Shown here piece by piece: positions 8,936 through 46,947 of a DNA stretch of 64,000 bases. The notes beneath the pieces are model-generated. The model ran no database searches, was not told the origin of the DNA, and saw nothing but the letters and a program-made list of their open reading frames with translations. The first letter of the stretch is position 1. Each line of letters opens with the position of its first letter. Both the position numbers and the translations under genes were made by a program. Source of the DNA: Gautieria morchelliformis (Eukaryota > Basidiomycota > Agaricomycetes > Gomphales > Gomphaceae); assembly GCA_015179125.1 (NCBI GenBank), contig WHVA01000034.1:248001-312000 (forward strand), written 5' to 3'.

Positions 8936-9260
8936 AGTACTCACTCATAGCAAAAATGGGCAATCAATATTTTTATGAAGTAATAATAAATTACCAACAC
9001 AGTCAAATTCAAAACATCACAGCATATATAATGGTTTTTTGACATCATGGGTGGGCAGAGGGTGTAGATAGCCAAATATTCTATGGCAACGAATTGCAGA
9101 GCACTGCAGTAGATTGGTAGATTGGAAAGGTGAGAACAGGATAGTTAATGAAGCCCCTGCATTGTGATTGCTGGGGGGTTTGTATTGGAATTGCAGTTAT
9201 GATGCAATAGCTTTGATGCTATCATCCAACTGTGCCGCTCTTCTGGACTTTACCAAGCCA

Positions 9261-11038
9261 TTAACCAATGCCTGAAGGAAACACTAACTGCTCACTGGAG
9301 ACAATAGGCCCTGCCATTTCTACATCTCCAGGACATCCCGTTGCCCAAGGAAACTCATCCAACTCTATCCCAGCAGGCCCAGCCTCTTCATGCTGGCTTT
9401 CCTGAACAGCCACATCATCCTCCAAGGCCTCAGGACTAGAAGCTTGGCTCAAAGGTGGGTTCCCAAATTCAGCCACTATGGCATTGTGAATACTTTGTCT
9501 GGCCGCTTCAAAGGTGGAGAATGAAAGAGTAGGTAATGAAGGGCTGTGAAGTTGACTGTGTCTCTCTTGGAGAGTTAGATGGAACCGGCAGATGATAATT
9601 GTTGACAAGCTGGATATGCACTGTTAGTACAGTGATGTCCTTCTTCTTAAATTGGTCAAAATATACCTGTTCTGAAGAGCGTTTAATAAGCCATCAAGGC
9701 TTGGCTTTATATCATGAAGGAGCTGATATTAGCCATTTTATTATCATGATCAATACCTTACATACCCGTAATGTCTGAATTGTGAGAGAACACCAAGTAA
9801 ACTCTGAAACTCAACAGGTTTATGAGTGACCATACCTTTGATGTGATAGTATCAGCCAAAGTAATTGTAAGCACAAATCTGAATGAATCAGATATATGAA
9901 ATATCATAGGAACAACATTCCATACCCATATCTGATAAAGCCTTACCTGTGGATTAGTGACATATCCACAAATATAAGCAATATGTTGTATACTCACCTT
10001 GGTAAATCACTAGACTAATGAGTGATTTCTTATCTTGAATTTCACCTTTCTTCCAAGTCTTCAGGGTTTCAATTGAGCTCTGAATGGCTACCACCACAAC
10101 TCCAGTGTCAAAAAGGATTACAGCAACACCACTGATAGTAGACCCTGTCAAAGGTATTCAGAGGCAGATTGGGCAAGTCCAGGCATCTATATCTTACACC
10201 TGGAGAATCTTTTAGTATAAATCCAAGTAGAAAGTCCTAGTCCATACTGACAAATGCCCTGTATTAATTTGTGAACTAGTGGGACTGCAATTGTCCAAAA
10301 CAGACAGATACTATATCCAGTGAAATGAATTTATGTTATTTATGTAAAGTTTGGACAGGCACATACCACTTGAGTGATAATAGCACCAAGAATAAGCAGC
10401 CCAAGAAAACCCAAAACTCTTTGATTCTGAAAAGAGATAGCATAGGTGCAAGCTAGCAGAAGGCCTAAATAGGTAATTTAATTTTAGTTAATAAATACAT
10501 AGGTATTATCACTCACCCTGTATTCCAATCAGAGAAGGAACAAAAAAAGCATCACGTAGATGAAGTATATGGTTACATTCCCTTCAAACATATGAGTCTC
10601 TAGGTTGCTTCTTCGTAAGGAATGAAAGTCATACTAGATACTCATTAAATTCAGTAAGGGTGTTGCGCGTGAGAACGGTAGTAATCACCCCAAGGGACAT
10701 GTTAGATAAATTGACGTATGTGTCAATAAGAAACAAACACAAGGGCAGGTAACGAGCGAGTAAATAGAGCATGGTGCCGATTTTGATGGTCTTGCACCAA
10801 ACGTGCGCGATCTCAGATGGCAATGTGAGAAGCGTGTCGAAGGTGAGCAGTGCTGTGGAACAAGCAATGGAAATTGAGGAATTAGACGGGGGACACGTAC
10901 ACATACCAATCGCTGCGAAGGTGACGTAGTTGAACGCAAAGCTAGTTCAGGTAAGTTCCTCTTCGTCTCACTCAATGTTGTAACCACGTACCTGTCTGAT
11001 AGTGTCTGGATACTAGCCGAGGTATCTGCCTGAGCCAT
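9261..11038 (-). CDS. DUF6533-type integral membrane protein
   Basis: A multi-exon gene. Exon 1 (11038-10992) starts MAQADTSASIQTLSD. Exon 2 (10941-10907) and exon 3 (from 10852) join in frame to give NYVTFAAIALLTFDTLLTL, then PSEIAHVW, IGTMLYLLARYLPL and FLIDTYVNLSNMS. These are the hallmarks of the DUF6533 N-terminal domain of agaricomycete membrane proteins. Later exons hold hydrophobic segments (RVLGFLGLLILGAIITQ near 10430; STISGVAVILFDTGVVVVAI near 10140; FVLTITLADTITSK near 9850). The last exon (9608-9261) has CRFHLTLQERH and an acidic cytoplasmic tail. That gives about five to seven membrane spans, with a putative receptor-like or transport role that is not established. Introns are about 45-60 bp where I could place them; the exact borders of the middle exons are uncertain. 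No break was found in the exons I read, so it may be functional. Confidence 0.75.
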
Positions 11039-11284
11039 GGTACAAGGAAGAAAACTAGGATGCAGACGAGGGACTATGTTTTGGGTAGCGACCTGGGTTT
11101 GGAGTGGCAGACGGCGGAAAGTGTCTATATAAGATTCTGGCCATAGTGCTGCCAGGTCAACAGATATTCATAGCTCCTATATCAGTGCCGAAGCCTGGCA
11201 CAATTACAGGGCGGAAGGGTCTGATAAACGAACATTGGATGTTCAGATATGGTTAGCCGTTCGAGCGAGTAATTGAGGCTGAGC

Positions 11285-22824: not shown

Positions 22825-22903
22825 GGTTATGGGCCCCGCGCATAACTAAACTACTACAAACCTAACTACGCTCTATACTCCAATAACTCAATACCGATCG
22901 ACG

Positions 22904-25900
22904 ATGTCGAGTAGCAACAACACGTACAAGATCGACCCCTTGAACGGGGATAACTACGTGGCGTGGCGCCGGCGGCTCGAGTGGATACTCGATGACTTAG
23001 ATCTGTGGGACGTGGCTATCGGCAGGGAGACGGAACTGAGACCGGCAGATGCCGACAACGTCACTGCAACCGAGCAGCAGGAGATCGATGATTGGAGAAG
23101 GAAGGACAAGAAAGCTAGAAAAGAGATTTGCCTCAGAGTTGCCGATGAACAACTAGTTTACATCAATCAGACGATGTCTGCGTTTGCTGTATGGACAAGT
23201 CTACAAGCAATATTCGAATATGAGGGAGCAGTGGGGATTGTAAATCTCCGAAGAGACTTCTTCCGGACGCTTGCCGAGGACGGCGCAAACATGGAGGAGC
23301 ACGTACGCAAGCTCCGCGGCATTCAACAGGAACTGAATGCGCGGGGGCATTACATCAGTGACACCGAGTTCTCGAACACGTTGCTGACGTCATTACCAGA
23401 TTCTTGGTCGGCGTTTATTACGGCAGTAAACGCCAGTGGAGCCGGGACAACAGCTGATATATTAATAGCTCGGGTCCTCGATGAGGATCGAGCACGGAAA
23501 GCTGGATCGGCATGGCAGACGGCGCTTAAGGCGCAACAACGTCACAGGACCAGGAAAGATGACTCAGGAGCAACAAAGGGAAAGTGCCGAAATTGCGGCA
23601 AGAAGGGTCATTACGTGAAGGACTGTTGGGCGAAAGGTGGCGGCAAGGAGGGCCAAGCACCGAAATGGTTCAAATCAGGGAACAAAGAAACAGTCAAACA
23701 AGCAGAAGAAAAGGACTTTGCATTTGTATCTAAGGAGGTAGCATACAGTGCTATATCCGCATCCGACTGGTTAGCCGATTCAGCGGCAACAACACACATA
23801 GCTAGAAGCCGAAATGATTTCGCTAGCTATGCCGAGGAACCATCAGAAATCGAAGGAATTTCACCCGGTGCGGTACTACATACACAAGGCCGAGGCACTA
23901 TATACATGGAATTCAAGATCGGCGCCAAGACGAACACGATTGAGCTACGTGACGTCAAACACGCACCAGATGCGCCGAACAACCTTATCAGCGTAGGGCG
24001 TTTAACTGATAAGGGTAACACGGCCACATTTTCAGGCACCGGCGTCGAATTCAAATCACGCGCCGGAGTTACCTTCGCACAGGGACAGAAGCGCGGGCGG
24101 CTATTCTGTATGAAGGCACGGGTCACTCGATCAGTCGAGGCACGGGACTTTGCCGCAGCGGCAAAGGGACGGTCATGGGACAAATGGCACAGGATACTAG
24201 GGCACGTCAATATAAACTCCATAAAGTTGTTGAAGTCTAACGATCTAGTCACCGGACTTGAGATCGACGAGTCAACCGAGCCGAGCCAGTGCAAGGCATG
24301 CATACAAGGCAAGCGGCATGTGGAGCCATTCCCCAAAAGAGCCGAGGACACTGTAGAACAGGTCGGTGACCTGACAGTATCCGATGTATGGGGACCTGCC
24401 CAGACCGAGGGACCATCGCGTGAGAAATACTTTTATTCTTTCACAGACATCAAATCGAGGTACACCGTAATCTATTTTGGGAGCACCAAAGATGAAGCGC
24501 TCAGACACTTCGAGACGTACAAGGCATTCCTCGAGACCCAAACAGGTCAGAAACTGAAGAGGTTTCGCTCGGATAATGGAGGAGAATATGTCAATAAAAA
24601 TTTCAAGGAATTTTGTGCAAAATATGGCATTATCATGGAGACCACAGCTCCATACTCCCCAGCCCAGAATGGAATTGCCGAACGACTCAACCGGACCTTA
24701 CTCGAGCACGCACGGGCAATGATGTTTGCCAAGAACCTGCCAAAAATACTCTGGCCCGAGGCCGTGGCTTACGCGTGTTATATCAAAAATCGATCACCCA
24801 CGCGAGCGCTTGGAGATGACGCAACGCCGTTCCAAGCACTATTCGGCAAGAAGCCGAACATAGCACGTCTAGAGGAATTCGGGACAAATTGCTGGGTTAT
24901 GGTGCCGGATCAACGTCGAGTCAAACTTGATCCAAAGGCAGAAGAGCATATATTCGTCGGAGTAGCAGAACATGCAAAAGCCTGGAGGTATTACAATAAA
25001 GCCTCAAAACATGTTCAAATTTCAAGAAATATTACATTCGACGAAAACGACAACAAACTCTACCCTATCCCAGATAACGACGATGACGACACGGCACCAC
25101 TCGAGGGGGAGCACTCACCGCGCGAGCATGTGCCGGACCCGATCACATCTACCCCACAGACGTCATCACCCCAGACAACACCCGTTCCTGATTCACCTGA
25201 ACAAGCGCCAGCTCCACAGATTCGACGGAGCGCGTGTATCACTCAAAGACCGGATTACTGGAAGCTGAATAATTCAGGACGCACCGAGCAGGTTTACATA
25301 ACGAGAGAAATCGTCACTGAACCTGAGAATTACAGAGCAGCGGTATCACGTGATGATGCGCCGATCTGGGAGAAAGCGATGGAAATTGAAATGGACCAAC
25401 ACAAGACGTTAGGAACATGGGAGCTAACAGAACTACCACCCGGACGAGTAGCTATCGGTTGCCGATGGGTATACGCTGTCAAAACACAACCGGACGGACA
25501 ATTCGATAAGGCTAAAGCAAGGATTGTGGCTCAAGGATTCACACAGAGGCCAGGGATGGATTACTACGAGATAACCTCACCCGTGGTCAAATTCGATTCA
25601 CTACGTGTTCTATTAGCGATCGCAAACACACTCGATTGGGAAATCGAAATGATGGATGTCAAAGGCGCCTACCTCAATTCAACTATAGATGAGGAGATCT
25701 ACATGCGCCAGCCCGACGGTTTTGACGATGGATCTGGACGCGTTCTAAGAATATACAGAGCGCTCTACGGACTCAAGCAATCGGGGCGAGCTTGGCATCA
25801 GCGCTTACGCAAATTACTACTCGATCTCGGCTTCCATCCAAGTACAGCCGATGAATGCGTCTACATCAGACAAGATAAGGATTCAATCGAAGTCATATCG

Positions 25901-26926
25901 GTATATGTGGACGACTTTGGACTATTTGCTGACTCCAAAGGAGGGATGATTAAGCTCAAGGGGGAGCTTCATGGGAAATTCCCTTTAACAGATTTAGGAG
26001 AAATGAAGAAAATCTTGGGAATTAGAGTTGAGAGGAATAGGGATGAGGGAACACTGATCATGTCACAAGGGCATTACATCGACATCATACTCGATCGATT
26101 CAACATGACAACGGCACATTCCGTATCTACACCTCTGCATAAAATGATCAAACTCACGACACCCATGGACTCAACAGGTCCAACTGCCGAAGTACCCTAT
26201 GCCAAGGCGATCGGATCACTCATGTATGCAGCACTCAGCACGCGACCTGATTTGGCCTTTACAGTACAACATCTGAGCCAATTCACTACCACTTACGGAA
26301 CCGAGCACTGGACGGCGATCAAGCACGCGCTCAGGTACCTCAAGGGGTCACGTGACGACGGCATAATCTTCCGACGAGACGCTGGTCTCGACCTCGAAAT
26401 ATTTGTCGACTCGGATTATGCTAATAGAAATGACGCACTATCTATTAGTGGCTATGTAGCTATACTAGGAGGGGGAGCTATCGCATGGAGCTCGAAGAAG
26501 CAGCGAACGATCGCACTATCTACCACGGAGGCCGAATACATGGCACTTACCGAGGGCGCCAAGCAATTAATCTGGCTGAGGCGTTTTATCGAGGAACTAG
26601 GAATCGATCAAACCCAGCCCACGTCACTTCGATCAGACAATCTAGGCGCCATTACACTATCGCATGACGCAACGTATCATGCGCGTACCAAACACATCAA
26701 TGTCGCATATCATTTCATCCGTGAGAAAGTGGTCTCTCACGAGGCATCACTTACATACGTACCGACGAAGGAGAACGTAGCGGACATATTTACAAAGGGA
26801 CTAGACATGCATCAACATAGGTATCTATTAGGGAAATTAGGATTTTGCCGAAGGGACTTCTCGCTGAGGGGGAGTGTTAGTAATCGGGACGATGACACCG
26901 CCGAGGCAGAGGCGGCACGCATTTAG
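22904..26926 (+). CDS. Copia Gag-Pol polyprotein, 1340 aa
   Basis: One frame holds all copia parts in the usual order. Gag N-terminal part (residues 1-210). CCHC knuckle CRNCGKKGHYVKDC (about 228). Aspartic protease block DWLADSAATTHIA (about 287). Integrase zinc-binding motif WHRILGH to CKACIQGKRH (about 428-470). Integrase core with TVSDVWGP, FRSDNGGEYV and SPAQNGIAERLNRTL (about 490-600). Reverse transcriptase with MMDVKGAYLN, LYGLKQSGRAW and YVDDFGLF (about 830-1110). RNase H with IFVDSDYA, TTEAEYMAL and LRSDNLGAI (about 1160-1280). Gag and Pol in one frame without a shift is common in fungal copia elements. The frame runs a little into the 3' LTR. Confidence 0.95.
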   Translation: MSSSNNTYKIDPLNGDNYVAWRRRLEWILDDLDLWDVAIGRETELRPADADNVTATEQQEIDDWRRKDKKARKEICLRVADEQLVYINQTMSAFAVWTSLQAIFEYEGAVGIVNLRRDFFRTLAEDGANMEEHVRKLRGIQQELNARGHYISDTEFSNTLLTSLPDSWSAFITAVNASGAGTTADILIARVLDEDRARKAGSAWQTALKAQQRHRTRKDDSGATKGKCRNCGKKGHYVKDCWAKGGGKEGQAPKWFKSGNKETVKQAEEKDFAFVSKEVAYSAISASDWLADSAATTHIARSRNDFASYAEEPSEIEGISPGAVLHTQGRGTIYMEFKIGAKTNTIELRDVKHAPDAPNNLISVGRLTDKGNTATFSGTGVEFKSRAGVTFAQGQKRGRLFCMKARVTRSVEARDFAAAAKGRSWDKWHRILGHVNINSIKLLKSNDLVTGLEIDESTEPSQCKACIQGKRHVEPFPKRAEDTVEQVGDLTVSDVWGPAQTEGPSREKYFYSFTDIKSRYTVIYFGSTKDEALRHFETYKAFLETQTGQKLKRFRSDNGGEYVNKNFKEFCAKYGIIMETTAPYSPAQNGIAERLNRTLLEHARAMMFAKNLPKILWPEAVAYACYIKNRSPTRALGDDATPFQALFGKKPNIARLEEFGTNCWVMVPDQRRVKLDPKAEEHIFVGVAEHAKAWRYYNKASKHVQISRNITFDENDNKLYPIPDNDDDDTAPLEGEHSPREHVPDPITSTPQTSSPQTTPVPDSPEQAPAPQIRRSACITQRPDYWKLNNSGRTEQVYITREIVTEPENYRAAVSRDDAPIWEKAMEIEMDQHKTLGTWELTELPPGRVAIGCRWVYAVKTQPDGQFDKAKARIVAQGFTQRPGMDYYEITSPVVKFDSLRVLLAIANTLDWEIEMMDVKGAYLNSTIDEEIYMRQPDGFDDGSGRVLRIYRALYGLKQSGRAWHQRLRKLLLDLGFHPSTADECVYIRQDKDSIEVISVYVDDFGLFADSKGGMIKLKGELHGKFPLTDLGEMKKILGIRVERNRDEGTLIMSQGHYIDIILDRFNMTTAHSVSTPLHKMIKLTTPMDSTGPTAEVPYAKAIGSLMYAALSTRPDLAFTVQHLSQFTTTYGTEHWTAIKHALRYLKGSRDDGIIFRRDAGLDLEIFVDSDYANRNDALSISGYVAILGGGAIAWSSKKQRTIALSTTEAEYMALTEGAKQLIWLRRFIEELGIDQTQPTSLRSDNLGAITLSHDATYHARTKHINVAYHFIREKVVSHEASLTYVPTKENVADIFTKGLDMHQHRYLLGKLGFCRRDFSLRGSVSNRDDDTAEAEAARI

Positions 26927-33602: not shown

Positions 33603-35123
33603 TGACCTTTTTGATTATCCTCCTAACTAAGAAGGGGAATCAGGGGTGATGGACAAGTATGAAGGGAAACCAAGGAATGCCAAGTGAACCCAAGGGTTCC
33701 CAAGCGAGTACCAAAGCTGAGGAATCTGTATACAGTGCACTCACTCATACAAAAATGGATGATCAATATTTTCATGAAGTAATAATAAATTACAAACAAG
33801 AGTCAAATTTGAAGAATCATAGCATATATAATGGTTTTTTGACATTATGGGTGGGCAGAGGGTGTAGATAGCCAAATATTCGATGCAACTAATTGCAGAG
33901 CACTGCAATAAATTGGTAGGTTGGAAAGGTGAGAACAGGATAGTTAATGAAGCCTCTGCACCTGGATTGCTGAAGGGTTTGTATTGGAATTGCAGTTATG
34001 ATGCATTAGCTTTGATGCTGTCACCAAACTGTGCCATTCTTCTGGACTCTACCAAGCCATTAACCAGTGGGTGAAGGAGACACTAACTGCTCACTGGAGA
34101 CAATAGGTTCTGCCATTTCTACATCTCCAGGACTTCCCATTGCCCAAGGAAACTCATCCATCTCTATCCCAGCAGGCCCAGCCTCTTCATGCTGGCTTTC
34201 CTGAACAGCCACATCATCCTCCAAGGCCTCGGCACTAGCAGCCTGGCTCAAGGGTGGGTTCCCAAATTCAGTCACTATGGCATTGTGAATACTTTCTCTG
34301 GCAGCTTGGAAGGTGGAGAATGAAAGAGTAGGGAATGAAGGGCTGTGAAGTTGACTGTGTCTCTCTTGAAGAGTTAGGTGGAAGCGGCAGACAATAATTG
34401 TTGACAAGCTGTATGTCCACTGTTAGTACAAACATGTCCTTCTTTATAAATTGGTGAGAATATACCTGTTCTGAAGAATGTTTAAGATGCCAGCAAGGCT
34501 TGGCTTTATATCATGAAGGAGCTGATATTAGCCATTTTATTATCATGATCAATACCTTACATACCCATAATGTCTGAATTGTGAGAGAACACCAAGTAAA
34601 CTCTGAAGCTCAACAGATTTATAAGTGACAATACCTTTGTTGTGATAGTATCAGCCAGAGTAATTGTAAGCATAAATCTGAATGAATCAGATATATGAAA
34701 TATCATAGGAACAATATTCCATACCCATACTGACAAAGCCTTACCTGTGGATTAGTGACATATCCACAGATATAAGCAATATGTTGTATACTCACCTTGG
34801 TAAATCACTAGACTAATGAGTGAGTTCTTATCTTGAACTTCACCTTTCTTCCAAGTCTTCAGGGTTTCAATTGAGCTCTGAATGGTTACCACCACAACTC
34901 CAGTGTCAAAAAGGATTATAGCAACACCAGAGATAGTAGACCCTGTCAAATGTATTCAGAGGCAGATTGGGCAAGTCTGGGCATCTATATCTTACACCTG
35001 GAGAATTTTTTAGTATAAATTACACTATGTGATGGGTGCCGCTGACAAATAATATTACGTAAAAATTAGGTCAGCGGCGAGCGGCGCAGCCGCGAGCAAT
35101 GAACGCTGCGCAGCAGCGTCCGT

Positions 35124-35180
35124 GGTCACGTGACCCGTTCACGCATGGTCCGTGCACAACACGCGCGTGCGGTATATAAA
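35124..35180 (+). promoter_or_regulatory. GGTCACGTGACC palindrome and TATA box of H1
   Basis: The 12-bp palindrome (35124-35135) contains an E-box core, CACGTG. It stands about 40 bases before TATATAAA (35173-35180). The same pair is found in H2 (38916-38927; TATAAAGG 38986-38993), and the palindrome alone in H3 (42516-42527). It could be a promoter or a binding site used in transposition; neither is shown. Confidence 0.5.
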
Positions 35181-36184
35181 GGCAGTTCGGTAGGGTGGAA
35201 CGCCAGGAATCTGCCCGACCAGCAATTCCTCTCTCTACTGTCTGCTCTGTCTGCTGTGTGCTCACTGCTTTGTCTGCTCTCTGCTGTGTCTGCGCTGTCT
35301 GCTGTCTGCTGCGCTCTCTGGTGTCTCCTCCTTTAGCTGGCTGGCTGTGTATTGCTTTGGTTGGCTGGCAGTCTATTGCTTTGTTTGGCTGGCTATCTAT
35401 TGGCTTGACTGGCTTTCTGTTGGTAGATAATATCCCTTTTTTAATGCATTCCCATGTATTTTATTTTATTTGTGTTTGTAATTTTATTCATTCCATTTTT
35501 TTTTTTGATCATATTGTATTGTCACATGTGCTTTATATTTTTGTGAATTTCTTCGAAAATTGATTTAAATAAAATCCCAAGATTGTGCTGAAAAAAAGTA
35601 TTTTTATATATATATTTTTCAGGTTTTTTTCGAAAATTGACATCAATAAGTTTCCTCTAAAATTAATGACAATAGGTTCTACTTTTAAATGTAGTTTGTT
35701 TTGTTGTTTTATTTACTGTAAAGCTGCCAGGCACTCCTTCTCTGGCTATACTGGTGGCTGGCTTACTATGGCTTTGCCTGGGCTCTGGGTTTCTCTGTCA
35801 GTCTCTGGGCTTCTCTGGCTTGGGCTGGGCATTAATAACAGCTTCTGTACTTTTTTGGCATTTTTTCACAAATAGATGTCAATAAATTATCCTGACTTTG
35901 TGAAAATTGACAACAGCTCCATACAGTGGATTTTTTGACATTTTTCGAAAAATAGATAATCTTGACTCTGCTAAAATTAATAATAACTTCAGCTTAAATG
36001 TACTGGACATTTGTTTTGACATTTTTCAAAAAATAGATAATCCTGACTTTGCTAAAATTACTGACAGCAGCTGCTTAAATATGGCTTCCTTTACTATTTT
36101 ATTTATATCTGTATGTCACAAAATAGATATTGATACATGTCCCTGAGTTTGCTAAAAGTTAATGCAAAGACAGCCTCTGCTTGC

Positions 36185-37130
36185 TTCACTTTGAGGCCCT
36201 TGGGATATGCTACACATGCCATTGGGACATGCTATGCATGCTATACTTGAGGGGCATGCTACACACACTATGCATGGGGACACGCACGCTATGCATGGAG
36301 ACACATATGTTATGCATGGAGACATGCATGTTAGGCGTGACATACATGTTATGCGTGAAGACATGCATGTTATGCGTGGAGACATGCATGTTAGGTGTGG
36401 AGACATGCATGTTAGGCGTGGAGACATGCATGTTGTGCATGGGGACACGTATGCTATGCTTGGGGACATGCATGTTATGCGTAGAGACACACATGTTATG
36501 CATGGGCACACACACACTATGCATGGGGATGTGCACACTATATGGTGGGATACACTATGCTTGGGGACAGACACACTATGCTTGGGGGACATGGTACAAA
36601 CAAGAGACACACTACGCACACTATGCATGGGGAAAACACTACAAACAAGGGACATTCTACACATGCTATCCTTGGGGGACATGTTATGGATGGGGGACAC
36701 ACTTTGCACACTATACTTGAGGGAGAGGCTACACACACTATGTGTAGGGAGATGCTACACATGTGGACATGCTATGCATGGGGGACACACATGCTATAAT
36801 TTAGGGACATGCTACATTTGGGGACATGCTACAAACCAGGGACACACTACACACAAAATACTTGAGGGATATGTTATGCATGTGGGACATGCAACACACA
36901 CGGTACTTGGGCACATGCTGCATGTGGGGACACACTATGCACACTATACTTAGGAACACATTACAAACAAGGGACACACTACACACACTATACTTGAGGG
37001 ACACACTATGCACACTATACTTGGGGACACAGTGCATGTGGGGACATGCCACCTGTGAGGACATGCTACGTGTGAGGATGCGATATGTGTGAGGACAGAT
37101 GAAGTGTGATGACAACTACAGGTGAGGACA
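36185..37130 (+). repeat. 21-bp minisatellite of H1
   Basis: Units like GGAGACATGCATGTTATGCGT recur about every 21 bases, then a looser GGGACACACTACACACACTAT form. Because the period divides by three, several frames on both strands stay open (up to 248 codons, Met/His/Gly-rich or Cys/Met/Thr-rich). I do not regard these as genes. Confidence 0.8.
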
Positions 37131-37187
37131 TGCTACACGTGAGGTAGGGGACACACAGACATGGGAGAAATGTGTAGAGTCATTACC

Positions 37188-37853
37188 TGTTATGTATTGG
37201 GTTTGGCTCTAAAAGGACTGCGGCTTCAACTTATATGTTGCGCCCCCAACTATCATCCTAAGTATTTTGGAGATTGGAGATCAGAAGTTGGAAGAGGTCA
37301 AGTATTATAACTGAAGAATTAAGTGAAGTTGGATATCAGAAATCGAGTTAGAAGACGGAGGTCAGAGAGACAGAGGCCTTGCAAGTACTTGCTCTGCTAA
37401 GAATAGGAAACAGTGCAAAGGGAGTCACATATTAAAGTTGATTATCTAATTGTAGAACAGAGGCATACGTGACTGGGTTTTATACAAAGAGCTGAGACAA
37501 CATGTCAGAAGGTAGAGAGGTAAGCAATTCCAGTGCAAGCGAAAGTCACTAGGATACATGGAGTAAGTAACTAATGTGGAACAAGAGGAACTACCAGGGG
37601 GTGCAGGGTAGAACTAAGAACGATGTGCAAAAGAACAAGGGGTGTGTAGGTCTAATTGCTAGCAAAACAAATGGAACTTCTGATGATCCAGACTTGCTGT
37701 GCTGACAGTTGAGTACGGAAGGCCGGTGAATAGAGGCGTAGGGGGAAGCATGTGAATAGGAAAGAACAAGGGGATCAAAGGTCAAAGTGCGGATGTTGTG
37801 GAATAGAGTTGGAGGAGGTGTGGAGGTACTGGAGTTGGTCAATGGTCATAACA
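37188..37853 (+). mobile_element. Solo LTR, family B, TSD TTACC
   Basis: A 666-bp LTR, TGTTATGTATTGGG to GGTCATAACA, with TTACC on both sides (37183-37187, 37854-37858). Orientation is taken from the TGTTACGTATC start of its relatives. H2 has the empty site at about 40766-40775. It is inserted in H1 and is somewhat diverged, so it is not very recent. Confidence 0.85.
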
Positions 37854-37919
37854 TTACCTACCTTGGAATGTGTTTGACTTATCCCAAGTTTGATTCACCC
37901 AATGTGTTTGACCTACACC

Positions 37920-37947
37920 CCCATGCGAAGCATGGGTATCCACCTAG
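37920..37947 (+). other. Inner Helitron 3' end within H1
   Basis: The hairpin CCCATGC-GAA-GCATGGG (37920-37936), TATCCAC and CTAG (to 37947) has the same layout as the outer end but a different stem. It marks an end that was passed over during an earlier transposition. Confidence 0.75.
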
Positions 37948-37961
37948 AGGTAAGGGTTCAA

Positions 37962-38509
37962 TAATTGAGTTAAGTTGGATATCAGAAATCGAGTTGGAAG
38001 GCAGAGGCCAGAGAGACTGAGGCCTTGCAAGTACTTGCTGTGGTAAGAACAGGAAACAGTGCAATGGGAGTCACATATCAAAGTCAATTATCTGATTGCA
38101 GAACAGAGGCACACATGACTGGGTTTTATACAAAGAGCTGATACAACATGTCAGAAGGTAGAGGTAAGCACTTCCGGTGCCAGCAAAAGTAACTAGGATA
38201 AATGGAGTAAGTAACTAATAAGGAACAAGAGGAGCTACAAGGGGGTGCCAGGTAGAACTAAGAACAATCAATAGGCAAAAGAACAAGGGGAATGTGGGTC
38301 TAATTGATAGTGGAACAAATGGATCTCCTGATGCTCTGGACTTGCTATGCTAAGGGTCAAGTAGGGAAGGCCAGTGAATAGAGCCAAAAGGGGAAGTGTG
38401 TGAATAGTAATGAACAAGGGGATCAAGAGGTCAAAGTGTGGACATTGCGGAATAGAGCCAGAGGAGGCATGGAGGTACCAGAGTTGGTCGAGCAGCATGG
38501 TCATAACAT
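37962..38509 (+). mobile_element. Partial LTR, family B
   Basis: It matches the LTR at 37188-37853 from about one third of its length to its right end, GGTCATAACA, and is followed by TTACC. It begins just beyond the inner Helitron end, so its left part was lost when the two sequences were joined. It is a fragment. Confidence 0.75.
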
Positions 38510-38678
38510 TACCTACCTTGATGTGTTACTTAGAGCTACTTTCAATCAATAGGATGTGTTTTACTTATCTGAATGAAATTTTCTTATCCGAATGTGTTTG
38601 ACATATCCCAAGTTTGATTTACCCAAGGCGTTTGACCTTGCTGGTGCGTTTGACCTTACCAAGGCGTTTGACTTGCAC

Positions 38679-38706
38679 CCCGCGCGAAGCGCGGGTATCC
38701 ACCTAG
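38679..38706 (+). terminator. Helitron 3' terminal hairpin and CTAG (H1)
   Basis: A 7-bp stem, CCCGCGC/GCGCGGG, with loop GAA, is followed by TATCCAC and CTAG. This is the replication-termination signal of Helitron transposition. Confidence 0.8.
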
Positions 38707-39964
38707 TTACACTATGTGAAAGCAGCTCGGTGGGAGGTTGTGGGCGCGCTGACCAATGCTGACCAATGCTTGGTCATTAGTTTGTCAGCGGAGCGCGCGC
38801 GAGCGGCGCAGCCGCGAGCCCCTGGCCCTATCACCGGTTTACGCCGGTCTGCCGGCTCCAGGGCTCTCTCTTTAGGTCAGCAGCGAGCGGCGCAGCCACG
38901 AGCATGCTGCGCAGCGGTCACGTGACCCGTTCGCGACCAGAGCGCACATACGCGAGTGTGGTCCGTGCACGACACGCGCGGGCGGTATAAAGGCCGAACG
39001 GTAAGGATGGAACGCCAGGAACCTGCCCAACCGGCGATTCCTCTGTCTGCTGTCTGCTATATGCTCTGTCTGCTCTGTGCTGTCTGCTCTGTGCTGTCTG
39101 TTCTGTGCTGTCTGCTGTCTGCTCTGTCTGCTGTCTCCTCCTTTAGCTGGCTGCCTGGCTATTGCTTGGCTGGCTTTCTATTGGTAGGTAATATCTTTTG
39201 TTTAATGCATTGCCATGTATTTTATTTTATTTGTGTTTGTAATTTTATTAGTTCTTTTTTTTTCATCATAGTATTGTCACATGTGCATTATATTTTGGTG
39301 ATTTTTTTCGAAAATAGATTTAAATATCATCTAAAGACTGCTGAAAAAATTGTATTTTAATATCAATATTTTTCAGGTTTTTTTCGAAAATAGACATCAA
39401 TAAGTTCCCTCTAAAATTAATCAGGTTCTGCCTTTAAATGTGGTTTGTTTTATTGTTTTATTTACTGTAAAGCCACTTACCAGCCACCCCTCTCTGGCTA
39501 TACTGGTGGCTGGCTTACTATGGCTTTGGCTAGGCTCTGGGTTTCTCTGTCAGTCTCAGGGCTTCTCTGGCTTTGGCTGGGCATTAATAACAGCCTCTGC
39601 TTCAATGTACTGTACTTTTTTGACATTTTTTCGCAGATAGATGTCAATAAATTATCCTGACTTTGTGAAAATTGTCAGCTTAAATGTACAGTGCATTTTT
39701 TTGACATTTTTCAAAAATAGATAATCTTGACTCTGCTAAAATTAATAACAACTTCAGCTTAAATGTACTGGACATTCATTTTGACAGTTTTTGAAAAATA
39801 GATAATCCTGACTTTGCTAAAATTAATGACAGCAGCTGCTTAAATATGGCTTCCTTTACTATTTTATTTATGTCTGTATATGTCACAAAATAGATATTGA
39901 TACATGTCCCTGAGTTTGCGAAAAGTTAATGATAAGTAACAGCCCCTGCTTGCTTCACTTTGAA

Positions 39965-40755
39965 GCCCTTGGGGATATGCTACACATGCCATTGGGACAT
40001 GCTATGCATGCTATACTTGAGGGGCATGTTACACACACTAACATGCATGCTATGCATGGGGACACGCATGTTATGCATGGAGACATGCATGCTATGCGTG
40101 GAGACATGCATGTTATGCGTGAGGACACACATGTTATGAGTGGAGACATGCATGTTATGCATGGGGACAAGCATGCTATGCATGGGCACACACAGGCTAT
40201 GCATGGGCACACGCACACTATGCATGGGGATGTGCACACTATATGTGGGGACACACTATGCTTGGGGGACACGGTACGAACAAGGGACACACTACAGGGG
40301 AAAACACTACAAACAAGGGACATTCTACACATGCTATACTTGGGGGACACGCTACAAACAAAGGACATGCTATGCACACTATACTTGGGGGACATGTTAT
40401 GCATTGGGGACACACTTTGCACACTATACTTGAGGGGGATGCTACACACACTACATGTAGGGACATGCTACACATGTGGACACGCTATGCATGGGGGACA
40501 CACATGCTATAATTTAAGGACACGCTATGTTTGGGGACATGCTACAAACCAGGGACATGCTATGCATGTGGGACATGCCATGCACACTGTACTTGGGGAT
40601 ATGCTACATGTGGAGACACACTATGCATGGAGGACATGCTACGCACACTATACTTGGGGACATGTTATGTGTGGGGTCATGTTACAATCCAGGGACACAA
40701 TAAGCATGCTATATTCAAGGCTATGCACGCTATACTTGGGCACATGCAGACATGT
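39965..40755 (+). repeat. 21-bp minisatellite of H2
   Basis: The same units as in H1 with a different copy number. The 276-codon plus frame and the 164-codon minus frame over it are by-products of the period. Confidence 0.8.
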
Positions 40756-40864
40756 GTAGAGACATTACCTATCTTGATGTGTTACTTATAGCTACTTTCA
40801 ATTGCAATGAGATGTGTTTTACTTATCCCAAGTTTGATTTACCCAATGTGTTTGACCTACACCA

Positions 40865-40891
40865 CCATGTGAAGCATGGGTATCCCCCTAG
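40865..40891 (+). other. Inner Helitron 3' end within H2
   Basis: CCATGT-GAA-GCATGG (one wobble pair), then GTATCCCC and CTAG (40888-40891). It is followed by AGGTAAGGGTTCAA, exactly as in H1, so the joined structure is older than the split of H1 and H2. Confidence 0.7.
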
Positions 40892-40906
40892 AGGTAAGGG
40901 TTCAAG

Positions 40907-42201
40907 AATCGAATTAAGTTGGATATCAGAAATCGAGTTGGAAGGCAGAGGTCAGAGAGACAGAGGCCTTGCAAGTACTTGCTGTGGTAAGAACAGGAAA
41001 CGGTGCAAAGGGAGTCACATATCAAAGTCAATTATCTGATTGCAGAACAGAGGCACACATGACTGGGTTTTATTCAAAGAGCTGAGACAACATGTCAGAA
41101 GGTAGAGGTAAGCAATTCTAGTGCAAGCACAAGTAACTAGGATAAATGGAGTGAGTAACTAATACGGAACAAGAGGAACTACAAGGGGGTGCTGGGTAGA
41201 ACTAATAACAATCAATAGGCAAAAGAACAAGGGGAATGTGGGTCTAATTGATTGTTACGTATCGGAATTCCCGGAGGTCGGAACTGGAAAGGACAACGGC
41301 TTCAACTTATGTGTTGCGCCCCTGATGAACTACCGTCCTAAGTATTTCGGGATTGACTTGCGGATATTAGGCAGAAGTCAGGAACAGAGTACTGAGAGTC
41401 GAGGTTCAAGGGTCGGAGATCAAAGGTCGGAAGAGGCGGAGGACAGAGGGTCGAGAGCGGAAGGAGACAAGACTAGCACAACTCGCTGTGCTAAGAACAG
41501 GAGACAGTGCGAAGGGAATCACGTATCGAAGTTGATTATCTGATTGCAGAAATGGAGACATACATGAGGGGGTTTTATACAAAGAGCTGAAGCAACAGGT
41601 AATGGTATGGTACTAAGTAAATTCCGGAGAGTGCGGGAATCGGATAGACATACAGGGCAAGTAACTAATGCGGAACAATGGGATGACAAGGGGGGTGCAG
41701 GGTAGGGTAAGTACAATGGCAAAGAACAAGGCAAGTAACTACAATAGGCAGCAGAAGAAACGGAATTACGGAAATGGTATCTTGCTGTGTTCAGGGTCAA
41801 GTACGGGGGCCGGTATCTGGAGGTGGCCAGGGGTACTGAAATCACAAGGGTCGAGGTAGAGGGTTGCGGATGGTGCGGATGTTGCGGATGTTGCGGATGT
41901 TGCGGAATAGAGTCGGAGGTGGTGCGGAGGTGGTGCAGAGGTGGTGCGAGGGATATGCAGGTATGGCGGAGATGGTTGAGCAGAACAGTCGTAACATTGA
42001 TAGTGGAACAAATGGATCTCCTGATGCTCCAGACTTGCTATGCTAAGGGTCAAGTAGGGAAGGCCAGTGAATAGAGTCAAAAGGGGAAGTATGTGAATAG
42101 TAAAGAACAAGGGGATCAAAAGGTCAAAGTGTGGATGTTGCGGGATAGACCCAGAGGAGGCATGGAGGTACCAGAGTTGGTCGAGCAGCATGGTCATAAC
42201 A
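40907..42201 (+). mobile_element. Partial LTR B holding a nested LTR B
   Basis: Left (40907-41252) and right (41997-42201) parts together match the partial LTR of H1. They are separated by the complete LTR at 41253-41996. It ends GGTCATAACA followed by TTACC. Confidence 0.75.
41253..41996 (+). mobile_element. Solo LTR, family B, TSD TTGAT
   Basis: A 744-bp LTR, TGTTACGTATCGG to CAGTCGTAACA, with TTGAT on both sides (41248-41252, 41997-42001). The empty site is seen in H1 near 38305-38318 (CTAATTGATAGTGG). It carries short GCGGATGTT repeats (41870-41905). It is inserted in an LTR of its own family. Confidence 0.9.
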
Positions 42202-42372
42202 TTACCTACCTTGATGTGTTACTTAGAGCTACTTTCAATCAATAAGATGCGTTTTACTTATCTGAAAGAAATTTTCTTATCTGAATGTGTTTGACTTATC
42301 CCAAGTTTGATTTACCCAAGGTGTTTGACCTTGCTGATGCGTTTGACCTTACCGAGGCGTTTGACTTGCACC

Positions 42373-42400
42373 CCCGCGCGAAGCGCGGGTATCCACCTAG
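42373..42400 (+). terminator. Helitron 3' terminal hairpin and CTAG (H2)
   Basis: Stem CCCGCGC/GCGCGGG with GAA loop, TATCCAC, CTAG; identical to H1. Confidence 0.8.
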
Positions 42401-42789
42401 TCTATAGTATAAAGTTGCTGGGAGGGTGGTTGTGGGTGTTTTACGTAATAATGTTATCTAATTTGCTGAGTTTGAACGCGAGCGGCGCAGCCGCGAGCGA
42501 CCGAGCAGCGTTCCTGGTCACGTGACCCGTTCGCGTCCAACGTTGCACCCACCTTCCCTCAACCCTCCTGCTGCCATTTCTTCTGGCTCAACTGTTGGCA
42601 ACTTCTAGCTCCCCTGCCCACTGTCTCTGTGCCTGATGGATCTGTCTGTCTGCTGCTGGATCTCTGTGTCTGCTGCTGGATCTCTGTGTCTGCTGCTGGA
42701 TCTTTGTGTCTGCTGCTGGCTCTCTCTGTGTCTGCTACTAGCTCTCTCTGTGTCTGGCTCTCTCTGTGTCTGTTACTGGGGCTCTCTGT

Positions 42790-43600
42790 CTCTCTACAGC
42801 CCCCTCAGGTAAATGTTGTTAATATTTTCGCTTTTTTATCCTCTTTTGACTTCTTTTCAGCCTAGGCTGCTCCTCTCATTCCCTCCCACCTTTCTGGATG
42901 TTAATTACTGGCTCTGGTGTGTTTTTTCCTATCATACCTATCATTTCTTCCAATAATTTTCGCTTTTTTATCCTCTTTTTGTCTTTTTTTTCAGCCCCCT
43001 CTGTCAATGCCTCCCACCTTGCCTGTCTGATATTGCTGCATCTGGTGTGTGTCTTGCTATCATGTTTTGATATTTATTAGAATCAGCTTCTCTCCATGTA
43101 TATATTGCTATTTCTTGCTATAATTTTCGCTTTTTTAATCTCTTTTTGACTTCTTTTCAGCTTAGGTTGCTCCTCCCATTGCCTCCACCTTTCTTGGTCA
43201 TCACTACTGCCTCCTGTGTGTTCTTTCCTTATCATATCTGTCATTTCTTCCACTAATTTTCGCTTTTTTATCCTCTTTTTGCCATATTTTCAGCCCAGGT
43301 TCCTCCTCTCAGTTCTCCCCACCTTTCCTGTCTGCCATTGCTGCATCGGGTGTGTGTCCTGCTATCATATTTGTGTTGTTTTGACATTTATTAGGATCAG
43401 CTTCTCTCCATAGTATTTTTTCCAACATTTTCACTTTTTTAACCACTTTTTGATTTCTTTTCAGCCTAAGCTGTTCCTCTTATTGCCTCCCACCTTTCTT
43501 GATCATTATCACTGCCTCTTGTCTGTGTTTTTTCGGTCATGTCTCGCAATAATTTTTCACTTTTTTATCCTCTTTTTTTTTTTTTTCTAGCACAGGTTCA
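42790..43600 (+). repeat. Direct repeats with TTTTCGCTTTTTTATCC core
   Basis: The block AATTTTCGCTTTTTTATCCTCTTTTTG occurs at about 42822, 42954, 43123, 43255, 43425 and 43551, each followed by CTTTTCAGCC-like and CTCCCACCTTTC-like words. Units are 130-170 bp. Pyrimidine tracts plus AG resemble 3' splice sites, but no exon frame is kept between them. Confidence 0.6.
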
Positions 43601-44213
43601 GAGCTCCCACCATTCCTGTGTCATGGCTGCAAGTGGTATATTTCTTGCTCTCATATCTGCTTCTTTTTTGATATTTATTAGGATCAGTTTCTCTTTTTTT
43701 TTTAATTCTTATGTATTTTCTTTTTTTTATGTATATATATACTGTATATTTGTCAAAATAGATATCAAAAAATTCCTTTGACTTTGCTAAAAATTAATGA
43801 CAACAGCCTCTGCTTGCAAAAGATAAGTCTATTGCTCTATTATCCATTGTAAACCCTCTGACATTTATTTATTTTCTCTGCACCTACAATACGTTCACTT
43901 TTAGGCTCTTAGGGTTATGCTACATATGGGGACATACTACAAACAAGGGACATGCTATGCACACTATACTTGGGTGACATGCTGCACTCAGGGGACATGG
44001 TACACATGGGGGACACACTACAAACAAGAGACATGCTACACATGATATACTTGGGGGACATGCTATGCATAGGGGTACACTACACATGGGGACATGCTGC
44101 ACACAAGGGACATAATACATATGATATACTTGGGAGACACACTACACATGGGGAACACACTACACATGGGGAACAGGCTACACTTGGGGTACATGCTATG
44201 CATGGTGACATGC

Positions 44214-44846
44214 TGTTACGTATCAAGATTTTTGCAAGTTGGAACTAGAAAGGACAACAGCTTCTACTTATATGTTGCACCCCCAATGAACTATCATCCT
44301 AAGTATTTTGGATCACGAGTCGGAAGTTGGAATGTATCGAACTAAACAGAAGTCAGAACTTGAGTTGGAAACCGAGTCGGAAGGCAGAAGGTGGGAGGTG
44401 GAGAGACAGAGGTCTTGCAAAACTCACTGTGCTAAGAACAGAAGATAGAGCGAAGGAAATCACGTATCAAAGGCAATTATCTGATTGCAGAATAACAAGC
44501 ATACATGAGGGGCTTTTATACAAAGAGCTGAGACAACATGTAATGGTGTAGTACTAAGCAAATTCTGGAGGGAGCGGAAGTCAGATAGACATACGGGATA
44601 ATTAACTAATTGGGAACAAGGGGACTAAAAGGGGGGTGCAGGGTAGGGTAGAACAATGGCAAAAGAACAAGGGGTCGGAAAGTATATCTGACATAAAGAA
44701 ACAATGAGACTCCAAAGGGGCTGGACACATGTGCTGCGAGGCAAAAGAACAAAGGAATAAAACAATGGGAGGAATGTCGGAATTATCGGAGGGTCGGAAT
44801 GTGAGTGGAACTGAGTGTCAGAAGTCAGAAATGCATGGTCATAACA
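44214..44846 (+). mobile_element. Solo LTR, family B, TSD CATGC
   Basis: A 633-bp LTR, TGTTACGTATCAAG to GGTCATAACA, with CATGC on both sides (44209-44213, 44847-44851), inserted in the satellite of H3. Confidence 0.9.
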
Positions 44847-45184
44847 CATGCTACGCACACTATACTTGCGGGACACACTACACTCCGGGAGCACATGCCA
44901 TACATAGGGACATGCTACCCATGAGGGGCACACAGACGTGGGAGAAATGGGTGGAGACATTACCCACCCTGATGCATTACTTAGAGCTACTTTCAATTGT
45001 GATAAGATGTGTTTTACTTATCTGAATAATTTTACTTATCCCAAGCTTTATTTACCCAATGTGTTGGACCTAACCACAGGTATCCACCCTAGCAGTGGTC
45101 CCAGTGCATTCACATCCAATGGGTCCCCAGCAGTCCCTACCCAGCGCTGTGCCACATCCTGCTGTGCAGCACAGGGCCACAGTA

Positions 45185-45322
45185 GGAATTGACTTGCGAT
45201 ATGCAGTATTTTCACATGGACAGTTTTATGTTGCACTAATTGTAACAGAGTCCATGTTCTTTAGGGAAGGGAACACAACATCTAATATTGTATACAAACA
45301 GGTGCTGCTAAAGCCTGATTAA
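45185..45322 (+). pseudogene. Helitron helicase (PIF1-like) C-terminal tail
   Basis: The frame GIDLRYAVFSHGQFYVALIV, then TTSNIVYKQVLL and a TAA stop, matches the last 45 residues of the PIF1-type helicase in the Rep/Hel protein of Helitrons, around helicase motif VI (HGQLYVALSR in the family). The Ser-Arg of that motif is not kept. The upstream frame is unrelated, so only the tail was captured. It lies about 90 bases before the terminal hairpin, the usual place in an autonomous Helitron. Confidence 0.7.
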
Positions 45323-45408
45323 ATATGTAGTTTCATTTCACCAAATAATTCTGTAATTCTGTAATACTATTGACTACCCCTGTGTGATGTTAACCTTCCT
45401 TAACTAAC

Positions 45409-45437
45409 CCAGTGCGAAGCACTGGTCTATTGGCTAG
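45409..45437 (+). terminator. Helitron 3' terminal hairpin and CTAG (H3)
   Basis: Stem CCAGTGC/GCACTGG with loop GAA, TCTATTGG and CTAG. It has the same geometry as H1 and H2 with a compensated stem. Confidence 0.8.
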
Positions 45438-46947
45438 TCTAAGTAGAAAGTCCTTGTCCTTACTGACAAATTCAATGTATTAAGTTGTGAACTAGTGAGA
45501 TTGCAGTTGTTCAAAACAGACAGATACTATATCCAGTGAAATGAATTTATGTTATCTATGTAAAGTCTGGACAGGCACATACCACTTGAGTGACAATAGC
45601 ACCAAGGATAAGCAGCCCAAGAACACCCAAAACTCTTTGATTATGAAAGGAAATAGCATAGGTGCGAGCTAGCAGAAGCCCTAAATAGGTAAATCGTGTT
45701 AATAATTTTAGTTAATAAATACACAGGTATTATCACTCACCCTGTATTCCAATCAGAGTAGAAACACTCAAAGCATCAAGTAGATGAGCTATATTGTTAC
45801 ATTTCCTTCAAACATATGAGTCTCTAGGTTGCTTCTTTGTAAGTAATGAAAGCCATACTAGATACTCATTAAATTCAGTAAGGGTGTTGCGTGTGAGAAC
45901 GGCAGTAATCACCCCAAGGGACATGTTAGATAAATTGACATATGTGTCAATAAAAAACAAACCCAAGGGCAGGTAACGAGCGAGTAAATAGAGAATGGTG
46001 CCGATCACCAAATGTGCGTGATCTCAGATGGCAATGTGAGAAACGTGTCAAAGGCAAGCAGTGCTGTGGAACTAGCTATGTAAATTGTGGAATTAGACGG
46101 GACATGTATGCATACCAAGCCCTGCGATGTTGACAGATCTGACCGCAAGGCTAGTTCAATAAGTTCTTCTGCGTCTCACTGAATGCAGTAAGTACGTACT
46201 CGTCTGATAGTGTCTGGATACTAGCTGAGGGGTCCATCTGAGCATTGGTACAAGAAAGAAAACTGGGATGCAGACGAGGGACTAAGTTTTGCGTAGCAAC
46301 ATGGGTTTGGGGTCGCAGACAGTGGAAGGTGTCTATATAAGATTCTGGCCATGGGTGCTGCCAGGTCAACAGATATTCATAGCTCCTACATCAGTGCCAA
46401 AGCATGGCACAATTACAGGGCGGAAGGGTCTGATAAACGAACCATGGATGTAAAAGACTTAATGTTAGCAATACGACGTAGAAGCATCAGATATAGTTAG
46501 CCGCTCAAGCGGGTAATTGAGGCTGGGCTTTTTTTTTTATTTTTTTATTTATTTTTATTTTTTATATCCATTAATATCCATTGAGAGTACTCATGTAGGA
46601 TAATACAAGCGTGTACCTATAGAGAGACCGTTATCAAGTGACACAACATAGTGCCCTAAGGCGGGGGGTCCTAAGCCGGACTACCACCCCATGGAAGTTA
46701 ATCGCTGTAAGGTATAATAATTTAGTTGTGATAAGGGCGCGGGCATTTCCCGTAACACGTTCGAAGAGAGTCCTTGTATGCCTTTGCTATTTACGAAAGA
46801 GACCGTAAATAAAATAAGAGAGAGGGCGGACGGAGCGGGCGATGTGGGTGCGCGAGCGGGAGCGTGGTGTGCGGGCGGGCAGGGGCGGGCGAGCAGGGTG
46901 TGCGAGCGGGCATGGGCGTGACCTGCGGTAAAGAGGTAGAGAGGAGG

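Follow-up and report, generated by a model that had tools for sequence, protein, structure and literature searches.

Three Helitrons stand head to tail at a single host site in the basidiomycete Gautieria morchelliformis, and we found that exact joins of this kind recur at hundreds of places in its genome. The window analysed here is the 64,000-nucleotide stretch of contig WHVA01000034.1 (assembly GCA_015179125.1, positions 248,001 to 312,000 of the forward strand), in which the elements, named H1, H2 and H3, occupy positions 35020 to 45437. We consider, with a probability of about 0.73, that such stacks arise as one newcomer after another inserts at an A|T made up of the A of the host and the T that opens the resident Helitron, so that they grow to the left and the youngest unit is outermost. 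Genome-wide results refer to 122 Mb in 1113 contigs and were obtained by reading ends in fetched stretches and by pattern searches.

Three Helitrons abut at one A|T site

H1 (35020..38706, nearest relative C321) and H2 (38707..42400, for which relatives were also found) are non-autonomous elements of the family we call A, and H3 (42401..45437) belongs to family C. All three lie on the forward strand and were delimited by sequence reading and end location; H3 was also covered by searches for its family. H1 begins with TTACACTATGTGA and ends with GCGGGTATCCACCTAG; H3 begins with TCTATAGTATAAAGTTGC and ends with CACTGGTCTATTGGCTAG. Sequence reading and hairpin folds bore out the original prediction that the three abut without an intervening base and that each ends in a hairpin and CTAG. 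The H1-H2 join (38706..38707) reads CTAG|TTACAC, i.e. CTAG|TTACACTATGTG, and the H2-H3 join (42400..42401) reads CTAG|TCTATA, i.e. CTAG|TCTATAGTATAAAG. Also as predicted, H1 and H2 start with TT and H3 with TC, and the host contributes an A on the left (35019, boundary 35019..35020) and a T on the right (45438, boundary 45437..45438, directly after CTAG), both boundaries being seen in the sequence and in repeat alignments. The 3' hairpins of H1 (38679..38695), H2 (42373..42389) and H3 (45409..45425) folded better than shuffled sequence as single-stranded DNA, with energies of -9.6, -9.6 and -6.9 kcal/mol (z -2.81, -3.59 and -2.65, respectively).

The unfilled site is preserved in a further copy of the host repeat within the window. 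This copy, at 9.9-10.5 kb, is unbroken, and the two direct-repeat families that align to the flanks of the stack (D9 and D14) meet in it at 10222. An empty A|T site had been predicted in this copy and is present, though at 10221..10222 (forward strand) and not at 10213. Copies of the host unit are dispersed through the genome, and all 42 matches listed, among them the query itself, were continuous across the insertion site. Of 307 candidates 40 were scored, and the scoring rewards continuous copies, so that the 42 matches are no tally of filled against empty sites.

Ends found across the genome define three main families. Family A, which includes H1 and H2, has the 5' end TTACACTATRTGAAAG or TTCCTATAGGTG and the 3' end GCGGGTATCCACCTAG. 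Family B has the 5' end TCTAAGAGT[T/G]AAACG and the 3' end GCGGGTACCCACCTAG, and family C, which includes H3, has the 5' end TCTATAGTATAAAGTTGC and the 3' end CACNGGTCNATTGGCTAG. A few further 5' types (TCAATA, TCAAAA and TTACTC) were seen. Several hallmarks of canonical Helitrons were found in these elements. Insertion was at A|T without target-site duplication, as read from the empty site in the window, and T directly followed 199 of 200 listed 3' ends. The 3' end was CTRR behind a hairpin (CTAG in H1-H3; one other copy ends in CTAT). The 5' end was TC in H3 and in families B and C, and the TT of H1, H2 and family A is a variant end of that family.

An HUH Rep and a PIF1 helicase were found in an autonomous partner, the B-type element C25:59729-66392. 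Its 1729-codon open frame, searched as two pieces, matched Helitron_like_N (PF14214) and PIF1 (PF05970). Genome-wide, PF14214 gave 150 matches among 150 candidates scored out of 865; these and the C25 element together indicate that autonomous partners are present. Within the stack, domain-family comparison gave no Rep/helicase match for the seven frames of at least 150 aa in H1 and H2, and the open-reading-frame list held no frame of at least 150 aa in H3. H1, H2 and H3 are three separate Helitrons of canonical type, the first two from family A and the third from family C.

Exact joins are the commonest context of 5' ends

A-type 5' ends occur at 280 places in the genome. The type of join seen between H1 and H2, an A- or B-type 3' end joined to an A-type 5' end, was found at 211 places with at most 3 mismatches, a looser limit than that used for the 280 ends, so that the two sets are not strictly nested. 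Among A-type 5' ends read directly, 21 of 30 lay right behind a Helitron 3' end, in one case a CTAT end, and the other 9 behind A. Family B gave a similar picture: of 100 5' ends listed (286 found), 77 stood exactly behind an A- or B-type 3' end, one behind a CACTAG variant, 21 behind A and one behind T. For family C, a Helitron 3' end preceded 63 of the 76 5' ends (44 A-type, 16 B-type and 3 C-type), with 11 behind A and 2 in other contexts; joins like that of H2 and H3, with an A- or B-type 3' end in front, thus account for 60 of the 76. Starting from the other side, 23 of 30 A/B 3' ends in an unfiltered sample read by eye were followed at once by a Helitron-like 5' end. Random A|T insertion would be expected to produce about 0.02 exact joins, given 642 ends of the three families, two orientations and 8.8 million AT sites, the last figure being derived from the AT frequency of the window. 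Exact head-to-tail joins, often between families, are therefore the commonest 5'-end context in the samples read.

The search patterns have some influence on these figures. The B- and C-type 5'-end patterns do not admit T 16 bases upstream of the 5' end; joined ends, where this base is mostly a fixed G, are retained and some unjoined ones are lost, and we estimate the true joined share to be somewhat lower, roughly 71-77%. The pattern behind the 100 listed A/B 3' ends bars G at its last place and so drops many A-type and some B-type 5' ends, and the unfiltered sample of 30 overlaps this listing. The C 3'-end pattern has the same bar and so drops the usual B- and C-type 5' ends downstream.

The original prediction had called for a genome-wide count of ends, and stacking turned out to be usual in the A, B and C samples. 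The join counts, together with the A|T rule at non-joined ends (see below), support its suggestion that Helitron 5' ends are favoured as targets. Repeats are difficult to assemble, but the joins are base-exact, number in the hundreds, and are spread over many contigs in varied combinations, making an assembly artefact extremely improbable.

Joined units are mostly unlike each other

We compared the types of 3' and 5' ends that meet at joins. A-type 3' ends preceded 8 A, 18 B and 11 C 5' ends, and B-type 3' ends preceded 4 A, 9 B and 5 C (p=0.99); this table holds 55 of the 100 listed 3' ends, leaving aside 6 with other Helitron-like 5' ends and 39 with unclassed or host sequence. Counted from the 5' ends, A- and B-type 3' ends upstream stood at 10:11 for A, 48:29 for B and 44:16 for C (p=0.09). 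Unlike pairs were slightly over-represented in the fetched stretches (p=0.035), which were chosen partly by A-type ends. In the samples read, the partners at a join are close to independent of each other.

The bodies of the units were compared as well. In a comparison of 57 units, from which two nested 5' matches were dropped, the adjacent neighbour ranked between 10th and 47th in likeness (9 adjacent pairs). Left units that are nearly alike (0.94-0.99) were joined to different right units, as in L003/L011 and in L005/L015/L038. All 29 A/B units readable by script (20 A and 9 B) carried matching ends of their own family (Fisher p=1e-7); inner 3' ends with AGG, AGA or CTA directly after them were not taken as unit ends. 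The absence of a like-with-like excess, the unlike neighbours and the differing right partners together indicate that most joins arose separately, although a number of joined pairs may have been copied.

These data bear directly on rolling-circle read-out, the other option named in the original prediction, by which an element or a joined circle is copied repeatedly and inserted as a tandem, or an end signal is missed. Missed end signals are the cited cause of bat and silkworm arrays in the available part of one report (PMC4067079), joined-end circles exist in Helraiser according to the accessible text of another (PMC5876387), and passed-over inner 3' ends are present in the units studied here. 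H1 has one at 37925..37947, followed by a AGGTAAGG tail, whose hairpin still folds well (z -3.35). That of H2, at 40869..40891 and also followed by AGGTAAGG, does not fold distinctly better than shuffled sequence (z -0.99, with 29 of 200 shuffles as good), and H3 has what by eye is a decayed inner end at 45070..45092 that has lost its hairpin, with a similar inner end in the C48 copy. All three are on the forward strand. The inner 3' end of H1 and H2 is also present in other family-A units and is therefore a subfamily trait. Read-out predicts like-with-like joins and near-identical neighbours, and neither was observed. Join pairing, matched own ends and unlike neighbours rule it out as the main source of stacks, and we regard it as very improbable overall.

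The possibility that H1-H3 always occur as one fixed 10.4-kb unit, also raised in the original prediction, is ruled out, since the closest relative of H1 has other neighbours. Among the units compared this relative is the C321 unit, 99.3% identical over 1415 bp, which has a B-type 3' end on one side and a TCTAAG-type 5' end on the other; it was also the best other match to H1 in a separate comparison.

Probable direction of growth and a proposed mechanism

Outside joins, A preceded 41 of 44 5' ends (9 of 9 A-type, 21 of 22 B-type and 11 of 13 C-type), a few of which lie inside another Helitron's tip. This A|T rule is kept if a newcomer enters between the host A and the T that opens the resident, and broken if it enters after CTAG; we therefore infer leftward growth. 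Additional support came from near-misses, in which insertion had occurred at A|T within the 5' tip of a resident, at TTACACTA|T, TCTA|T and TCTATAGTA|T (the last at C257, C738 and C1017, the others at L068 and C191). Near-misses 2-3 bp from a 3' end (C282, C571 and C171) were ambiguous. The family-C copies at C257, C738 and C1017, whose flanks differ, carry the 9-base tip twice in succession, TCTATAGTA-TCTATAGTA; they are possibly a composite that arose by insertion into the tip and was later mobilised.

Insertion on the 3' side, between the CTAG of the resident and the next T (a G|T site), would make stacks grow to the right and would yield identical joins and identical host A and T edges. 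This order is offered as one option for a maize pair in the available text of that study (PMC2267711), and nearest-relative likeness does not show left units to be younger than right ones. It would, however, make most insertions of all three families non-canonical, and it leaves the A|T insertions inside 5' tips unexplained. Moreover, G was never found before non-joined A-, B- or C-type ends, one CTAGG variant excepted. We consider this route unlikely.

Family C showed a marked polarity. Its 5' ends were joined in 63 of 76 cases and its 3' ends in 7 of 100 listed (152 found; Fisher p=2e-26), a figure that carries the exclusion of a final G in the C 3'-end pattern. C-type 3' ends preceded 3 of 76 C-type and none of 100 listed B-type 5' ends. 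This polarity fits A and B elements landing in front of C. Provided that C is the youngest family, its landing behind A and B at G|T would fit as well and would explain why it stands rightmost in stacks.

At individual loci, leftward growth is supported by the C25 stack, whose outermost left unit is the full RepHel (Rep and helicase) element at 59729-66392, with a host A before it. For the window, the predicted order of arrival, H3 then H2 then H1, is consistent with identity to the nearest relatives (100%/99.3% for H1, 93-98% for H2 and 94-95% for H3) but is not proved by it. The C42 and C43 stacks are 95-99.8% alike and have the same layout. C48, C154, C236 and C296 have 17 bp in common to the right of a C 3' end, and the flank is shared for about 45 bp only, except between C48 and C296. 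A Helitron 5' end in reverse orientation occupies a shared position in three copies, C380, C640 and C692 (L098-L100), whose surroundings look like family C and not like host flank.

Several observations weigh against repeated leftward insertion. First-in-stack units were expected to be younger than joined ones, and the age test on A units went in that direction without reaching significance (mean 0.82, n=10, and 0.75, n=29, respectively; p=0.10). Mean nearest-relative likeness did not differ, at 0.74 for left and 0.73 for right units (p=0.75; the sides were not family-matched), and identities of 88-95% among the matches scored do not clearly mark family C as older. Comparison of stacks across contigs gave no pair of loci differing by the leftmost unit alone. 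The three TCTATAGTA|T near-misses (C257, C738 and C1017) may be one copied event, and another near-miss, TCTAAGA|TCTAAGAG (C142), does not fall on any A|T in the B tip as characterised here. The left and right 1.4-kb sides of 29 joins correlated weakly (r=0.16, p=0.027), so some joins may be copied; in this comparison the H1-H2 join was used in place of the window locus L001, and the left side of L006 was only 241 bp long. Finally, L020 (C135:159904), L059 (C47:264175) and L052 (C42), and likewise L063 and L067 (C56 and C74), have bodies about 93-97% alike with 5' tips of TTACAC, TTCCTA or TCTAAG. This mismatch of tip and body, which looks like an exchange of the outer 20 bp, suggests that units recombine within stacks.

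The last two observations raise the question of whether recombination, by unequal exchange or homology-driven integration of Helitron circles, could build and shuffle stacks with no target preference. Exchange of tip and body between units 91-97% alike and the weak left-right correlation are what it would leave behind. Circle integration, on the other hand, gives only joins of an element's own 3' end to its own 5' end, all 29 units had matched own ends, and mixed joins must already exist before they can be shuffled. Recombination as the origin of the stacks is thus improbable.

Repeated insertion at the resident's left end could work as follows; the scheme is our own proposal, modelled on that for Helraiser in the accessible text of PMC5876387. 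RepHel would cut at the A|T of the resident's left end, a cut needed to launch the resident, and the cut or RepHel-bound left end might be the best-prepared target for an incoming Helitron. The free 3' end of the host A would take the 5' end of the newcomer, whose CTAG 3' end would then join the 5' end of the resident. Some members of a stack may later be reshaped when inner 3' ends are passed over or when units recombine. Because RepHel would cut this A|T to launch the resident, the left end might act as a homing site for any Helitron with a compatible RepHel. New copies would then be confined to existing copies and the left-to-right order would record successive invasions, an extension for which we see about even chances.

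Other features of the units and the window

Several features of the three units were noted in passing. A rarer G variant occurs in the first 13 bases of H1 (35020-35033) and also in the tip of H2. After these 13 bases, H1 lacks about 21 bp relative to its near-identical C321 relative (L002). Frames in 21-bp repeat blocks of H1 (36195-36950) and H2 (39914-40756) gave weak matches, below the cut-off, to a repeat-rich antifreeze family, most likely chance matches arising from the repeats. H1, H2 and H3 also contain mutually similar sequences of about 640-735 bp (37190-37850, 41250-41985 and 44213-44850) of the form TGTTA...TAACA, which by eye look like solo long terminal repeats with short flanking repeats.

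In the surrounding window, the host unit spans 9086-11144 and 33885-46352; its listed copies are 83-90% alike, the query itself apart. Arms near 11.4-12.7 kb and 50.3-51.6 kb are inverted copies. A single long open frame of 1358 aa occupies 22850-26926, which we take, by resemblance only, to be a Copia-like polyprotein. The Copia-like and long interspersed nuclear element (LINE)-like frames of the window look fungal, again by resemblance only.

Comparison with known systems

Hundreds of joins among distinguishable families suffice to separate read-out from consecutive insertion, and the pairing found here is that of independent insertions. If the cut end of the resident is the target, this would explain Helitron clustering and would provide a relative insertion clock; it would also suggest an assay design for Helitron target choice. 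Our literature search, with incomplete journal coverage, found no genome-wide test of the pairing and polarity of Helitron joins. Mixed head-to-tail joins have already been published; their scale and polarity here appear to be new.

The closest case is in maize, where the available text describes one pair of unlike Helitrons with a G/T junction, attributed to consecutive insertion with the order left open (PMC2267711). The two systems share the CTAG|TC join with its G/T junction, unlike elements, and inferred consecutive insertions with two possible orders. The maize case is a single locus, whereas here joins occur at hundreds of places and involve three families, with no like-with-like excess and with polarity. 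Head-to-tail junctions are also known from bat, silkworm and plant arrays (PMC4067079, PMC5876387), and the accessible parts of these papers attribute the arrays to a missed end signal (bat and silkworm, PMC4067079) or to rolling-circle copying, for which head-to-tail joins are cited as support (PMC5876387). Here, in contrast, the units are mostly unlike and the joins are mixed; distantly related Helitrons are reported as adjacent in bat and maize (PMC4067079).

Among fungi, the portion of the FoHeli study available to us (PMC5148889) describes a tandem of three copies in Metarhizium, for which both explanations are stated. One FoHeli4 lies 2 bp from another, and duplicated 5' termini, a likeness to our stacks, are reported. 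FoHeli elements have Helitron2-like ends and target, in contrast to the CTAG ends and A|T target found here. HELPO1 and HELPO2 of Pleurotus ostreatus (PMC4289320) are closer in type, being fungal, with RepHel, an A|T target and CTRR 3' ends, and with a 5' end of T[C/G]. Helitron clusters are reported for them; the accessible text mentions neither stacks nor a 5' TT, both of which occur here. The elements of G. morchelliformis are ordinary Helitrons with a TT variant end in family A, and their frequent, mixed and polar stacking is a striking instance of something already known but seldom counted.

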